Notes under the pieces: model-generated | What the model was told of the DNA's origin: nothing | Seen by the model: only the letters and a program-made list of their open reading frames with translations | The model's database searches: none | Position numbers and translations under genes: made by a program | Shown: positions 36,462 to 42,606 of the stretch, piece by piece | Numbering within the stretch: position 1 is the first letter of the stretch | How the letters are laid out: every line of letters begins with the position of its first letter | Assembly: GCF_019683595.1 (NCBI RefSeq) | Contig: NZ_JADGHZ010000004.1 | Span: 1 to 56,155 of the forward strand | Source: Sphaerobacter sp. | GTDB taxonomy: Bacteria > Chloroflexota > Chloroflexia > Thermomicrobiales > Thermomicrobiaceae | Direction: 5' to 3' | DNA length: 56,155 bases

Positions 36462-38702
36462 ATGGGAAGGGCCACCAGCCAGGTGATCACCGACAGTACA
36501 CAGCAGCACGCCGTGGTGGCGCGTGGACATGTCCCGGCCATCCGCTTCGCAACGCCCGTCCTGACCGGAGTAGCGGTCCTAGCTGCCGTGATCGCGCTGG
36601 CGGGAATCGCCGTGCTGGCGTACGGTCGCACGCACGGTCCGACCATCTACCGCGGCGTCAGCGCCGCTGGTGTGCCCCTCAGCGACCTCGACCAGGCCGA
36701 AGCGGAGGCGCGGATCGAGGCGGCGGTGAAGGCATCGTTGCCGGCCGCGGTGGAGCTTCAGGCCGGTAATAACCGCTGGCAGGTGCCGCTGGCGGACCTC
36801 GGCATCGCCGTGGACCCTGGGGCGACGGCCGAGGCGGCCTGGCGCTGGGGGCGCAGCGGCGACCTCTGGGCCGACAGCCGCGCCTGGTTGCGCGGCTTGT
36901 TGGGCGGCTACGAGGTGCCGCTGGCGGTGTCGCTCGACGAGCAGGCCGTGTACGGGAAGCTGGAAGCAATCGCACCGGAGGTGACCCGCCCTGCCCGCGA
37001 TGCTCGCTACGAAGAGGGAAGCGACGGGCGACTGGTGGTCGTGCCGGAGGAGGACGGCGTCGCGATCGACGTCGTGGCGACCGCCAACCAGATTCGGCGC
37101 CGGGTGCAGCAGCTCTCGACCGAGCCGGTTCCAGTCGTCACCATTTCGATTTCGCCGAAGGTGGATGCCGACGCGCTCCAGCGCGGACTGGAGCGAGCCG
37201 AGGAGCTGATCGCCGAGCCGGTGCTGTTGACGTACCACGGCCGGAGCTGGGTGCTCGACCCGGGGACCCTGCGTGAGATGCTGACCGTGCCCACCGACGG
37301 GTCGCGGAAGAACCAAGAACTGACCATCGACCGGGAGCGCCTGCGCGCGAGCGTGGCGAGCCTTGCCGACGGGGTGGGGCAGCCTGGTCGGGACGCGACG
37401 CCGGTCTGGGACGGCCAACGCTTCGTGGTTCAGTCCGCCGGGACGGGTGAAGCCCTCGATGTCGACGCCACGGTGGACGCGATTCTCGCCGGGCTGGACG
37501 ACGGCGAGCGTCGGATTGAGCTCCGGACCCGCCAGGTCGCGGCGCCGATCGGCGACGCCCAGGCGGAGGCCGCCGCTGAGCAAGCGACCGCGCTGGTGAC
37601 CAACGGACTGACCGTGACCTGGCCGGACGGCAGCAAGCACCTCGAGCCCGGAGAGCTGGCTGAGGCGATTCGTTTCACCGCCGTGCACGGCGAGGAGCCC
37701 CGGCTGGTGCCCGAGGTCGACATGGATGCGTTGCGGCAGGTGCTGCAGCGCCACGCGGCAGAGGTCGAGATCCCGATGCGCAACGCGGACCTGCGGTATA
37801 TCAATGGGCAGGTGGTCGTGCGGTCTCCCGAGCAGGCGGGACGGACACTTGACCTCGACGCCTCCGCGGCCAACATCGCCCGCGCGCTGGAGACCGGCCA
37901 ATCGCAGGCCGAACTGGTGACGCAACCGGTCGAGCCGCAGGTGACGGCGGCGATGGCCGGCACGGTCCAGATCCGGGAGGTTCTTGCCAGCGCCGCGACC
38001 TACTATGCGGGAGCGTTGGAGAACCGCCGCCACAACGTCGAACTGGGGGTGGAGCGGGCCAACGGCGCCCTGATCCCGCCGGGCGGCGTCTACTCGTTTG
38101 TCGATACGGTCGGGGCGATCGATCTCAACTCGGGGTACAAGGTCGGCTACGGGATCGTCGGGACGAGCAACGGGAGCGTGTCAACGGTGCCGTCGGTCGG
38201 CGGCGGGGTGTGCCAGGTGTCGACCACGGTGTTCCAGGCGGCCTTCTGGGCGGGGCTGCCGATCGTCGAGCGCAACTGGCACCTGTACTGGTTGCCCTTC
38301 TACGGCCAGCCGCCCAGCGGCCTGACCGGCCTTGATGCGACCGTCGACACCGACTTCGGGCTTGACCTCAAGTTCAAGAACACGACCGACGACTGGATCG
38401 CCATCGTCGCCACCGCGGACGGCGAATGGGTCCGCGTCGAGATCTGGGGCACCGATCCGGGCTGGACGGTCCGGGTCGACGACCCGGTGGTGACCAACGT
38501 GGTCAAGGCCGACGAGACGATGCAGTACCGGGAGTCGGACCAGCTTCCGGCCGGGACCAGTCTCCAGGTGGAGCGGGCGCAGGACGGCTTCGACGTCAGC
38601 ATCCACCGGCAGGTGCTGCGCGGCGACGAAGTGATCGACGATCTGACGCTGCGCAGCCAGTATCTCCCGTCGGCGAACGTGACCCTGGTCGGTACGGGCT
38701 AG
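36462..38702 (+). CDS. VanW-family membrane-anchored cell-wall protein (YoaR-like)
   Basis: A 746-residue protein with an N-terminal membrane anchor (about 31-54). It then has repeated YoaR/peptidoglycan-binding-type beta modules (GVSAAGVPLSDLDQAEAEAR is the first, and similar LEPGELAEAIRF-type units recur to about 500). A C-terminal VanW domain follows: LGVERANGALIPPGGVYSF, SVGGGVCQVSTTVFQAAFWA, RNWHLYWLPFY. VanW occurs beside vancomycin-resistance genes but is mostly found alone, and its reaction is unknown. Start chosen at the ATG 36462, which lacks a strong ribosome site. Confidence 0.9.
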   Translation: MGRATSQVITDSTQQHAVVARGHVPAIRFATPVLTGVAVLAAVIALAGIAVLAYGRTHGPTIYRGVSAAGVPLSDLDQAEAEARIEAAVKASLPAAVELQAGNNRWQVPLADLGIAVDPGATAEAAWRWGRSGDLWADSRAWLRGLLGGYEVPLAVSLDEQAVYGKLEAIAPEVTRPARDARYEEGSDGRLVVVPEEDGVAIDVVATANQIRRRVQQLSTEPVPVVTISISPKVDADALQRGLERAEELIAEPVLLTYHGRSWVLDPGTLREMLTVPTDGSRKNQELTIDRERLRASVASLADGVGQPGRDATPVWDGQRFVVQSAGTGEALDVDATVDAILAGLDDGERRIELRTRQVAAPIGDAQAEAAAEQATALVTNGLTVTWPDGSKHLEPGELAEAIRFTAVHGEEPRLVPEVDMDALRQVLQRHAAEVEIPMRNADLRYINGQVVVRSPEQAGRTLDLDASAANIARALETGQSQAELVTQPVEPQVTAAMAGTVQIREVLASAATYYAGALENRRHNVELGVERANGALIPPGGVYSFVDTVGAIDLNSGYKVGYGIVGTSNGSVSTVPSVGGGVCQVSTTVFQAAFWAGLPIVERNWHLYWLPFYGQPPSGLTGLDATVDTDFGLDLKFKNTTDDWIAIVATADGEWVRVEIWGTDPGWTVRVDDPVVTNVVKADETMQYRESDQLPAGTSLQVERAQDGFDVSIHRQVLRGDEVIDDLTLRSQYLPSANVTLVGTG

Positions 38703-38748
38703 GCCGCGCGGTGCTCCGGTAGCACCGTGGCACCGCTCGCGCGCTGCG

Positions 38749-38778
38749 TTGACCCGGTGTGGACGCGAGGGGTACGAT
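38749..38778 (+). promoter_or_regulatory. Promoter of the zincin-like gene
   Basis: TTGACC (38749-38754), 18-bp spacer, TACGAT (38773-38778), start near 38785. Because it lies inside the longest open frame (from 38759), it argues for a downstream translation start. Confidence 0.5.
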
Positions 38779-38851
38779 TCATGCATGTCTCCTATGCGTC
38801 CGAGCCCGCACGACTGACGTGCCACAGGCTGCACTGGGAAGGCGCACCCCA

Positions 38852-40084
38852 TTGGCAAGATCGACATCCCCAGATAAGCGACTCATCTCGATCGGCCTCC
38901 TGATCGGAGCCGCGGTCGGCGTGTGGGCGGGCAATCGCATGCGCGAGCAGCAGGCCCGGCAGGCGACGCGCGAGATCACCGCGCCAGGCGAGCCACCGCC
39001 GCTCATCAACTGGAGCCAGGTGCGGAGCGTCGCCGTCAGCTTGAACCGCGAGTCGAGCCTGGAGGGGGTGGACCGCGAAGGGCTCAATGGCTACTACCGT
39101 GAGCTCGTCGAGCGTGCGGTGCCCCTGGTCGCGGCCTACACCGGCGATGAGTTGCCCGGCACCCTGGACCGGGTGTACGCCTTCGACCGGATCGACTGGA
39201 TCGACGCCAACATCGACGGCTTCCGCGACATGTTCAAGCCGCTGGAGGCGCTCAACCCGTTGGGCGAGCAGCGCGGCCCGCGCACGATCAGCCTGCTCTG
39301 GGGCGGCCTGAACCAGACAGTGTTGAGCGCGGAGATCGGGTTCCTCCTCGGCTACCTCGCGCGGCGCGTCCTGGGACAGTACGACCTGGCGCTCCTCGGG
39401 CGGGAGCCGCTGACCGGCGGCAAGCTGTACTTCGTGCAACCGAACATCACCTCGGTCGAGCGCGCGCTGCGTCTTCCCGATGAAGACTTCCGGCTCTGGC
39501 TGACGCTGCACGAGGTCACGCATGCCTTCGAATTCGAGTCACACCCCTGGCTGCGGCAGCACATGAACGGCATGATCGAGCGCTACTTCGAATTCCTGGG
39601 CCAGGACATCGAGCATCTCAAGCGCGGCATTGACGGCCTGCGCGCCTTCTGGGATCGGGCACGCAGCCGCGAAGGCACCAACGGGAGCTGGATCGAGCTG
39701 GTCATGACGCCCGAGCAGCGCGCGCTCTTCAACCAGATGCAGGCGACCATGTCGGTCGTCGAGGGCTACAGCAACCACGTCATGAACGCCGTGGGCAAGG
39801 ATCTGATCCCGAGCTACGAGGTGATCGCGCGGCGCTTCGAGCGGCGCCAGCACCAGCGGACGCCCGCCGAGCACCTGTTCGCCCGCCTGACCGGTCTGGA
39901 CATAAAGATGGAGCAGTACCGGCAAGGTGAAGCGTTCGTCAACCACGTCGTTCGGGAGCGCGGGCACGACTTCGCGCGGCGGCTCTGGGAGGGGCCGTGG
40001 ATGCTGCCGACGATGGACGAGATCCGCAATCCGGACCAGTGGATCGAGCGGGTCTCGACGGCGCAGCACCCGGCGCCGCTCTAG
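38852..40084 (+). CDS. Zinc-dependent metalloprotease-like protein (Zincin_2/DUF2342 family)
   Basis: About 410 residues. An N-terminal hydrophobic stretch (LISIGLLIGAAVGVWAG) may anchor it. The zinc site is HEVTH (His220-His224) in WLTLHEVTHAFEFE, and the C-terminal part has VEGYSNHVMNAVG and GLDIKMEQYRQGEAFV, typical of DUF2342. Family members are annotated as zincins sometimes linked to F420 biosynthesis, but no F420 genes are here. I chose the TTG at 38852 because GGGAAGG lies 9 bases upstream and the promoter excludes earlier starts. A GTG at 38819 is the alternative. Confidence 0.85.
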   Translation: MARSTSPDKRLISIGLLIGAAVGVWAGNRMREQQARQATREITAPGEPPPLINWSQVRSVAVSLNRESSLEGVDREGLNGYYRELVERAVPLVAAYTGDELPGTLDRVYAFDRIDWIDANIDGFRDMFKPLEALNPLGEQRGPRTISLLWGGLNQTVLSAEIGFLLGYLARRVLGQYDLALLGREPLTGGKLYFVQPNITSVERALRLPDEDFRLWLTLHEVTHAFEFESHPWLRQHMNGMIERYFEFLGQDIEHLKRGIDGLRAFWDRARSREGTNGSWIELVMTPEQRALFNQMQATMSVVEGYSNHVMNAVGKDLIPSYEVIARRFERRQHQRTPAEHLFARLTGLDIKMEQYRQGEAFVNHVVRERGHDFARRLWEGPWMLPTMDEIRNPDQWIERVSTAQHPAPL

Positions 40085-40116: not shown

Positions 40117-40326
40117 ATGGAGAAGCCGGACATCACCTCGGCCGAGCGCCTGCTGCGGCAGGATGAATACACCCTTGAGGAGCTCGCCGCGCTGCTGGAG
40201 CTGCGGCCCTACGTGCTGGAGAGCGCGATCTATGGCGGTGAGCTCAAGGCTCGCATGGTCGGCACCGACATCGTGAGCATTCGCCGCGCGGACGTCCTCG
40301 ACTGGTTGCGTGCCCGCGAGGGGTAG
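40117..40326 (+). CDS. Small helix-turn-helix (excisionase-like) DNA-binding protein
   Basis: A 69-residue protein with a winged-helix, MerR/excisionase-like pattern: YTLEELAALLELRPYVLESAIYG, a beta wing (ELKARMVGTDIVSI) and RRADVLDWLRAREG. This fold usually binds DNA. The gene lies 32 bp after the metalloprotease gene and 53 bp before nurA, so it may be co-transcribed. Its target is unknown. The ribosome site is weak (GGGGG). Confidence 0.75.
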   Translation: MEKPDITSAERLLRQDEYTLEELAALLELRPYVLESAIYGGELKARMVGTDIVSIRRADVLDWLRAREG

Positions 40327-40379
40327 GGGCGCAGGCACGCCACAGCACAGCGCCGCGAGGGTCCAATCGGGGGACGGCG

Positions 40380-41561
40380 ATGACACTGGACCTCAGTCGC
40401 ATCGCGGATCAACTCAACCGCATGGTCGCCACCCAGCGTGGCGACGGGTTGGAGGGCCTGACGGAGCTGCGCGAGGCCTACGCCGCGGTCGACACCGCCG
40501 ACCTCCGCGGGCGGCTCGCCGAGGCGAAGACGTCCTGGCTGCTGGCCCGGACCGACGGGGACTTTCGCGCGCACATCCCAGCGCCCACAATCGACGGCGA
40601 TTTCGCCGTGGTGGCGAGCGACGGGTCATTCATCCTCCCCGACCGGCACAGCCCAGCCCGCTTCTATCTGATCAACATCGGCAAGGTGCTCCTCCGCTAC
40701 GGCGACGAACCGCGCGCCGAGTTCGCCACCGAGCCGCACCTCTACTACCAGGAGGAGGAACTGTACGTGCCGCACACCGTGCGGCGCATCCCGGTGAACG
40801 GGACGGTGTTGGGGCTGAAGCGGGCCACCGAAGAGCTGCGGGCGGTGGCCGAGCAGGCGACGGACCTGCCATGCCCGGCGCTCGCGCTCCAGGACGGGAC
40901 GCTCATCCTCTGGGCGCTGGAGAGCCAGCCCGACTTCGTGGTGGAGTGGGTGCTGGATCCCTTCCTGGAGACGCTGGCGCGCCTGCGCGATGCCGGGGTG
41001 CCGGTCGCTGCCTACATCAGCGCCCCCGGCTCGACCGATGTGGTGAACACGCTGCGTGTGTCGATCTGTGACTACCCGGAGCGGGGGCTGCCGGTCAACT
41101 GCGACCACTGCCGGTCGCAGATCCCGCACGGCCGGGTGCCGGCCTGCGACCGGTTGCCCGACGTGACCGACCGTTTCCTGTTCGAGCAGGCGGCGGGGCT
41201 GGCGCCGGGTGAGCGGACGCAGGTCTTCGCCAGCACCTCCAAGATCCTGGAGCAGTACGGGCCGGACTTCCACATCCACTTCTTCTACCTGCACACCGGC
41301 ACCGAGATCGCGCGCGTCGAGATCCCGCGCTGGGTGGCCGAGGATGTCGACTTGCTCGACCGGACGCACGCGATCCTCGTCGATCAGTGCCAGCGTGGCC
41401 GGGGATACCCTCCGGCGTTGCAGGAGGCTCACGAGCTGGCCGTCATCCGCGCCGAGGAGCGCCGGGCGGTGGAGGTGCTGATCGAGCAGGCACTGGCGGA
41501 GCATGGGATCGTCGCGCTGAGCACCGGGAAGGACGGGAGTAAGCGTGGTCGGTTCGTCTAA
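40380..41561 (+). CDS. nurA: NurA-domain nuclease
   Basis: A 393-residue NurA. Metal-binding motifs of the family are visible: D81 in VVASDGSFILPD, D172 in LALQDGTLILW, D335 in AILVDQCQRG and H351 in GYPPALQEAHELAV. In archaea NurA resects DNA ends together with the HerA translocase. An unusual feature is a four-cysteine cluster (C230, C241, C244, C256; NCDHCRSQIPHG in the middle) that could bind zinc or an iron-sulfur cluster. GGGGGA precedes the ATG at 40380. The next gene overlaps it by 17 bp. Confidence 0.88.
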   Translation: MTLDLSRIADQLNRMVATQRGDGLEGLTELREAYAAVDTADLRGRLAEAKTSWLLARTDGDFRAHIPAPTIDGDFAVVASDGSFILPDRHSPARFYLINIGKVLLRYGDEPRAEFATEPHLYYQEEELYVPHTVRRIPVNGTVLGLKRATEELRAVAEQATDLPCPALALQDGTLILWALESQPDFVVEWVLDPFLETLARLRDAGVPVAAYISAPGSTDVVNTLRVSICDYPERGLPVNCDHCRSQIPHGRVPACDRLPDVTDRFLFEQAAGLAPGERTQVFASTSKILEQYGPDFHIHFFYLHTGTEIARVEIPRWVAEDVDLLDRTHAILVDQCQRGRGYPPALQEAHELAVIRAEERRAVEVLIEQALAEHGIVALSTGKDGSKRGRFV

Positions 41562-42165
41562 CGGATCGGCACCGCAGCGGCTCGGGGAGGTGATCGAGAC
41601 CAGCACGGTGCGGCTGTGGGTGGAGAGCGACCGGCTGCACGACTTGCCGCCGCTCGGGTCGGTTGTGCGCGTGGCCAATGGCGTGGGCGACACGATCTAC
41701 GCGGTCGTGTCGTTCGGGCAGACGGCCGGCATCGACGAGACCCGGCGGGCCATTCGTCGCGGCTCGGACCAGATCCGCGACGACGAGGTCTACCGCCGCC
41801 ACCCCGAGTTGACGCAGATCCTGCGCACGACGTTTGAGGCGCTGCCCGTTGCCTATCGCCGCGGCGGCGCGATCCGGCGGATGCTCCCGCCGCTCCCCCC
41901 GCCGCTCCACTACTCGGTTGAAGCGGTCGAGGGCGACGACCTGCGAGACCTGACCGGCGATCCGCGCTACCTGTCGCTGCTGGTAGCGGCCGACGCGGCC
42001 GTACCGACCGACCACCTTGTGGCGGCGCACCTACGGCAGGTGTACGAGGCGCGCGGTGACGACCGCCCGTGGCTCGAAATGGCTGCACGCGAGATCGCGC
42101 GCCTTCTGAAGAACGATTACGACCGTGTACTCCCCCTCCTGGAGGCGATCGATCCGGACGGGTAG
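41545..42165 (+). CDS. HAS-barrel-like protein coupled to NurA
   Basis: A 206-residue protein. Residues 12-65 (LGEVIETSTVRLWVESD, SVVRVANGVGDTIYAVV) look like a HAS barrel, the beta domain at the N-terminus of HerA-type translocases and ATP synthases. The rest is helical and there is no P-loop, so it is not HerA itself. It starts at the GTG 41545 inside the end of nurA, so translation is coupled. Inference: an adaptor that docks NurA onto a separately encoded HerA ring. The family call rests on pattern only. Confidence 0.65.
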   Translation: MVGSSNGSAPQRLGEVIETSTVRLWVESDRLHDLPPLGSVVRVANGVGDTIYAVVSFGQTAGIDETRRAIRRGSDQIRDDEVYRRHPELTQILRTTFEALPVAYRRGGAIRRMLPPLPPPLHYSVEAVEGDDLRDLTGDPRYLSLLVAADAAVPTDHLVAAHLRQVYEARGDDRPWLEMAAREIARLLKNDYDRVLPLLEAIDPDG

Positions 42166-42304
42166 GGACCGGGTCTGGGATTAGTGGACATTGCCGAATT
42201 TTTCCGGCATGCTCTCCGCCTCGTTTCGTGCCTTCCTCAGCCGATTCGGGCGAATGTCGAACGGATCCGCGATAGGTAGCGAGAAGGTTCTCACGCCGCG
42301 ATCT

Positions 42305-42361
42305 GTGCCCGGGGCTAAAGCCGCCGGGCTCACAACGGAAGCCGGCTGAAGCCGGCTGAGG
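42305..42361 (+). repeat. Intergenic palindromic repeat, copy A
   Basis: A 57-bp unit made of two small palindromes: GTGCCCGGGGCTAAAGCCGC...GGGC and GAAGCCGGCTGAAGCCGGCT. It is nearly the reverse complement of copy C (42535-42592). It lies in the 598-bp gap 42166-42763, which contains no gene. Confidence 0.75.
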
Positions 42362-42458
42362 ACGGTCGTCCGACCGAGTGGTGAGGAGGACCAGCCGCTC
42401 GGGGCGTGCCCAGGGCCAATAGGGTGTGACCAGGTATGTAAGCGTACGTGCTCTGCAC

Positions 42459-42511
42459 GTGCCCGGGGCTCAAGCCGCCGGGTCCAGGCCGGGTGGCGGG
42501 ATCCATCCTGC
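42459..42511 (+). repeat. Intergenic palindromic repeat, copy B
   Basis: Starts GTGCCCGGGGCTCAAGCC and ends GGGTGGCGGGATCC. It is a direct partial repeat of the right part of copy C, sharing both the GCCCGGGGCTCAAGCC block and the GAGTGGCGGGATCC-like block with similar spacing. Confidence 0.7.
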
Positions 42512-42534
42512 CAAGGCGCCAGCCCTGCGTCGCC

Positions 42535-42606
42535 CCAGCCGGCTTCAGCCGGCTTTCCTTGTCAGCCCGGGGCTCAAGCCCCGGGCACGCGCCGAGTGGC
42601 GGGATC
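42535..42606 (+). repeat. Intergenic palindromic repeat, copy C
   Basis: CCAGCCGGCTTCAGCCGGCT, then a spacer, then GCCCGGGGCTCAAGCCCCGG and GAGTGGCGGGATCC. The first 58 bp are the inverted counterpart of copy A. The last 50 bp repeat copy B directly. Confidence 0.75.

Follow-up and report, generated by a model that had tools for sequence, protein, structure and literature searches.

A stand-alone HAS-barrel protein as a probable third component of a HerA-NurA system in Chloroflexota

P3, the name given here to the 206-aa product of an ORF that overlaps nurA in Sphaerobacter sp., is a HAS-barrel protein, and comparison of gene content and gene order across Chloroflexota indicates that it is the third component of a HerA-NurA system and not part of a machine devoid of HerA. 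With a probability of about 0.5, we regard P3 as a protein dedicated to the HerA-NurA DNA-end-processing machine of Chloroflexota, its most likely role being to link NurA with HerA as a docking or adaptor subunit. The first-pass annotation of this locus had proposed that the protein serves NurA of this lineage as adaptor or cap, and this remains the best reading of P3.

The window, i.e., the whole stretch of 56,155 nucleotides that was analysed, corresponds to contig C84 of genome G000, which is nearly complete, and carries three forward ORFs between positions 40117 and 42165, encoding a HTH_17-like protein, NurA and P3 (Table 1), the window's own copy of the latter being designated P0003. The initial description of a 206-residue gene overlapping nurA by 17 bp proved exact (ORF 41545-42165). 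The overlap measures 17 or 8 bp in relatives from the same order and 1, 4 or 10 bp elsewhere in the phylum; since the 17- or 8-bp overlap recurs in the same-order relatives, the GTG start of P3 is credible, and translational coupling of the two genes through the overlap is likely. The NurA motifs DGS (D81) and QDGTL (D172) were invariant in an alignment with 34 relatives. The same protein has three cysteines arranged as CxxC...C (approximately residues 241, 244, and 256; window 41100-41147), which recur in most of the NurA clade and possibly form a zinc-binding element. A small HTH gene does precede nurA in the window (40117-40326), as first noted, but it does not stand as a part of the system: a relative adjoining nurA was found at only one other locus, of the same genus, and the gene was rejected as a component because of this genus-restricted occurrence. 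Further upstream (window 36462-40084) a VanW/PG_binding_4 protein and a Zincin_2 metallopeptidase are encoded, for which a link with DNA repair is not evident, while the intergenic region 3' of P3 (window 42300-42590) contains many palindromic CCCGGGGCT(C/A)AAGCC-like repeats, resembling a dispersed intergenic repeat.

Table 1. Positions in the window of the nurA-P3 locus and of the segments of P3, with the basis for each assignment.
Feature	Position	Strand	Basis
HTH_17/excisionase-like ORF, 69 aa, 5' of nurA	40117..40326	+	PF12728 1.9e-5, under Pfam cut-off
nurA, NurA-family nuclease, 393 aa	40380..41561	+	PF09376 E 8.9e-27
nurA/P3 overlap, 17 bp	41545..41561	+	read from sequence
P3, stand-alone HAS-barrel protein, 206 aa, GTG start	41545..42165	+	ORF; PF09378 in homologues; AF2; structural matches
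P3 residues 12-62, HAS-barrel strands E12-19, E24-28, E40-44, E50-62	41578..41730	+	AF2 model; region matched by PF09378 in homologues
P3 residues 63-92, conserved loop plus short helix RRxxRG...DxxxYxxxPxL	41731..41820	+	conservation; alignment with HerA N-termini
P3 residues 112-128, most conserved segment LPPxPPPxHYSVxxC	41878..41928	+	conservation; alignment consensus
P3 residues 129-206, helical C-terminus in place of HerA ATPase domain	41929..42162	+	AF2 model; no Walker A

The identification of the barrel from the raw sequence was right, and it is the homologues and the predicted structure that establish it. P0003 alone gave no HAS-barrel match in the profile search, and a PDB sequence search with P3 returned no convincing match; PF09378 was matched by 47 of 61 P3 homologues (best E 1.4e-15), including that of locus L104, which exceeded the cut-off (5.5e-7) with residues 6-103 aligned to positions 1-88 of the 90 in the profile. 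The AlphaFold2 (AF2) model of P3, built from a 61-sequence alignment (pLDDT 92.2, pTM 0.87), was closest to HerA HAS domains: the top PDB matches obtained with Foldseek were all HerA (best 1.7e-6), and VIA-align superposed residues 11-170 of the model on residues 1-125 of HerA with Z 13.9 and 2.0 A over 100 residues, the barrels of F1-ATPase ranking next (Z ~11). Profile-profile comparison placed P3 and HerA in register over residues 4-65, at a probability (2.8%) and E value (0.016) too weak to be used alone. The absence of an ATPase motif, also remarked upon in the first-pass annotation, extends to the homologues, as a Walker A motif (GxxxxGK[ST]) occurred in none of 138 homologues, and the profile search gave no DUF87 match for P0003 or its homologues. 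Some apparently long P3 fusion ORFs (e.g., 549 aa in L174) were rejected as stop-to-stop artefacts, because a start codon precedes the P3 portion of about 200 aa.

The resemblance to HerA appears, from the alignment, to continue past the barrel into the linker that precedes the motor (P-x-H-[YF]), the most conserved segment of P3, LPPxPPPxHYSVxxC, being aligned with the HerA linker IPxHFA located just before the motor domain. Beyond this point the AF2 model consists of helices (H130-137, H140-147, H155-169, H174-187, and H192-202). The barrel fold, the linker match and the lack of Walker A taken together, P3 is therefore to be regarded as a HerA N-terminal domain in which the motor is replaced by helices. 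Its conserved loop and short helix (residues 63-92) exceed the equivalent region of HerA from the same system by about 12 or more residues in the alignment, and this segment would occupy the position where the HAS domain of HerA touches NurA, a placement derived from strand order and not from coordinates.

The distribution of P3 was searched in 158 genomes of the class and in 400 genomes sampled across Chloroflexota, and the protein was found in 100 and 150 of them, respectively. Within the phylum-wide sample, P3 and one HerA clade occurred together in 147 genomes, with P3 only in three, HerA only in five and neither in 245 (Fisher p ~5e-99, uncorrected for phylogeny). With the NurA profile of this clade, strong matches followed the same genome pattern, and weaker NurA matches (E ~1e-12 to 1e-24) fell mostly in genomes without P3. 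A scan of genome contigs for NurA gave one clear Chloroflexota relative and one weak partial match; the latter, of 30% identity (L034, 2706-3095), lies on a 3-kb contig (NZ_JADZBI010000232.1) of a Hyphomicrobium (alphaproteobacterial) MAG and is possibly contamination. Several small near-complete genomes (0.9-2.1 Mb) have kept nurA, P3 and herA, and no plasmid records with P3 were found.

Among 139 P3 loci, 85 have nurA within 300 bp upstream of P3 and 47 have herA at most 300 bp downstream; 24 of them have both genes so placed, in the order nurA-P3-herA. Genes overlap on both sides of P3 in L149, L164, L167, L179, and L196, and the overlap of P3 with herA is often 4-13 bp in relatives. In family f10, P3 and herA are together and nurA is elsewhere, and 31 of the 139 loci lie away from both genes, and at sites apart from nurA and herA none of the neighbors of P3 stood out as a conserved partner gene. 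In f14, a sister family of the same class, nurA is paired with a herA whose product is very different (~25% identity), and P3 is absent (L086, i.e., G091:C30; G092-G097). A second, divergent NurA and HerA were also observed close together in several other genomes (e.g., G027:C101, G103:C166, and G028:C73). Being associated with one HerA clade and absent from f14, P3 thus identifies a particular subtype of HerA-NurA system, and it is the near-strict co-occurrence with this clade, the nurA-P3-herA order and the absence from f14 that lead us to place P3 within that system as its third component.

The first-pass annotation had described the locus as without HerA, which is true only locally, and had suggested that P3 might be at the center of some other machinery for end resection, a reading that the genome as a whole does not support: one DUF87/HerA gene is present (G000:C300:5190-6869, E 1.4e-29) on a contig different from that of nurA-P3, and encodes a complete protein with its own HAS barrel (2e-4); in many relatives such a complete herA lies directly 3' of P3, the arrangement that the annotation itself had named as refuting its proposal. 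The HerA-less machine was accordingly rejected. Replacement by P3 of a barrel lost from HerA was likewise discarded, as the barrel was present in 37 of 37 aligned HerA members; since HerA keeps its own barrel, that of P3 is additional to it and not a substitute, and P3 is not needed as a source of barrels. In the genome of the window, an Mre11/SbcD-like metallophosphoesterase gene comes 6 bp past the stop of herA (L002, G000:C300 5190-8120), and the order herA-sbcD is also seen 3' of nurA-P3 in L155, L157, and L159 and 3' of P3 alone in L156. The window's genome also encodes AddAB-like nucleases and SbcC/Rad50-like ATPases, and HerA-NurA-P3 would therefore not be its sole route of end processing.

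In the solved complexes HerA carries a NurA dimer on the face formed by its six barrels. NurA docks in Thermococcus kodakarensis on the HAS domain chiefly through α1 and the preceding loop (PMC12977600), and in Deinococcus radiodurans through acidic HAS residues of HerA (PMC9960219). By analogy, the HAS barrels of the Chloroflexota HerA would form the ring face where the NurA dimer docks, and P3, whose barrel is of the same kind and whose extended conserved segment would lie at the NurA-docking face, would bind NurA, the ring of HerA barrels or both as an adaptor. In that capacity it would couple the nuclease to the translocase, through stoichiometry, activation or nuclease loading, and would not act alone. 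Binding to NurA or to the HerA ring appears most likely because the HerA barrels dock NurA and P3 has the same barrel with a longer segment, and a docking or adaptor role is favored because that longer segment at the docking face is combined with the nurA-P3-herA coupling. What counts against an adaptor is that known HerA-NurA complexes work without P3, that HerA has a barrel of its own, and that 31 of the 139 P3 loci are remote from both partner genes. A more specific arrangement, which we put forward only tentatively, would place P3 between the NurA dimer and the HerA ring, stacked there either as a second ring of HAS barrels or as a HAS cap bound to NurA, so that in this Chloroflexota branch docking would have been split from the motor into an obligatory adaptor.

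An AF2 model of a NurA-P3 fusion was also produced, in which the overlap was read through with a four-letter code and the input comprised 21 stop-read-through paired rows and 120 unpaired ones. The model reached pLDDT 93.9 and pTM 0.75. This pTM is above the ~0.65 that we would expect of two domains of these sizes that fold well but have no fixed relative placement, and below that of a confident interface, so that it gives at best a hint of an interaction. Residues 71-80 of P3 had a pLDDT of ~72 in the model of P3 alone and of ~90 in the fusion; because the input alignments differ, this rise is not evidence of contact.

The first alternative to a NurA-docking adaptor, somewhat unlikely in our judgment, is that P3 joins the HerA barrels side by side in a mixed ring, or caps the exit face of HerA, regulating HerA oligomerization or loading. 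The HerA-like fold of P3 would suit such a role, as would its presence in 147 of the 152 genomes with this HerA clade and the f10 loci, in which P3 abuts herA with nurA elsewhere; however, P3 abuts nurA without an adjacent herA in 61 loci, the window included, and it lacks the motor domain, through which much of the contact between subunits is made in HerA rings. That P3 is instead a chaperone or inhibitor of NurA, mimicking the HerA barrel and keeping the nuclease inactive until HerA is available, seems to us improbable: the nurA/P3 overlap (17, 8, 4, or 1 bp) does resemble the arrangement of genes for a protein and its chaperone or inhibitor, and the HerA-like barrel could serve such mimicry, but P3 is often coupled to herA as well, by the 4-13 bp overlaps, and since NurA of D. 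radiodurans reportedly shows little activity in the absence of HerA (PMC12977600), there is no obvious need for a separate inhibitor. Least probable of all is a DNA-binding factor, or one recruiting a partner such as Mre11/SbcD or RecJ, that is simply carried along with the operon. In its favor, small β-barrels related to the HAS barrel do occur in DNA-binding modules (BrxHI; PMC12839542), and an SbcD-like gene comes after herA in the window's genome and several relatives; but the fold of P3 matches HerA N-terminal domains specifically, pre-motor linker included, and the SbcD-like gene was seen to adjoin only a few loci.

The HAS-barrel domain is already in Pfam and HerA-NurA is already known, while P3 as a third protein of that system seems undescribed, as far as we could find. 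A full-text literature search returned no stand-alone HAS-barrel partner in Chloroflexota; Iyer et al. 2004, reportedly the founding comparative study of HerA, lay outside its coverage, and an earlier mention of solo HAS barrels is possible. HerA-NurA has been described as a two-component system (PMC9960219; PMC12977600). If our reading is true, a near-obligatory third protein would alter how many subunits HerA-NurA comprises, and perhaps how it is regulated, in a large phylum that includes very small genomes. Docking in Chloroflexota would seem to be partly separated from the motor, which makes the coupling of NurA to the HAS ring, and its switching on by it, testable with small proteins.

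Among known systems, P3 is nearest to the N-terminal domain of HerA itself (PF01935/PF05872, with HAS-barrel PF09378), with which it shares the HAS fold, the pre-motor P-x-H linker and the nurA neighborhood, and from which it differs in having no ATPase or Walker A, a longer loop/α1 segment and a helical C-terminus, and in being present besides a full HerA. The N-terminal barrel (crown) of the F1-ATPase α and β subunits has the same fold, but is fused to an ATPase and is more distant than HerA. The HerA-Sir2 and HerA-DUF4297 anti-phage complexes are among the solved HAS folds closest to the P3 model, and in them too a HAS ring bears an effector enzyme; their effector families differ from NurA, and we know of no separate barrel protein in these complexes. 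The PADLOC defence models gave no match for NurA or P3, and the HerA of the P3 system matched the PADLOC HerA models over part of its length only. With the archaeal and Deinococcus HerA-NurA systems (T. kodakarensis, 9x1m; D. radiodurans, 7f6d) the Chloroflexota system shares nurA, herA and the HAS barrel as presumed docking element, and, as in archaea, an Mre11-like gene is found near herA. The archaeal and Deinococcus complexes consist, however, of two protein types, with six HerA to two NurA, whereas in Chloroflexota a third, HAS-barrel protein is conserved phylum-wide.
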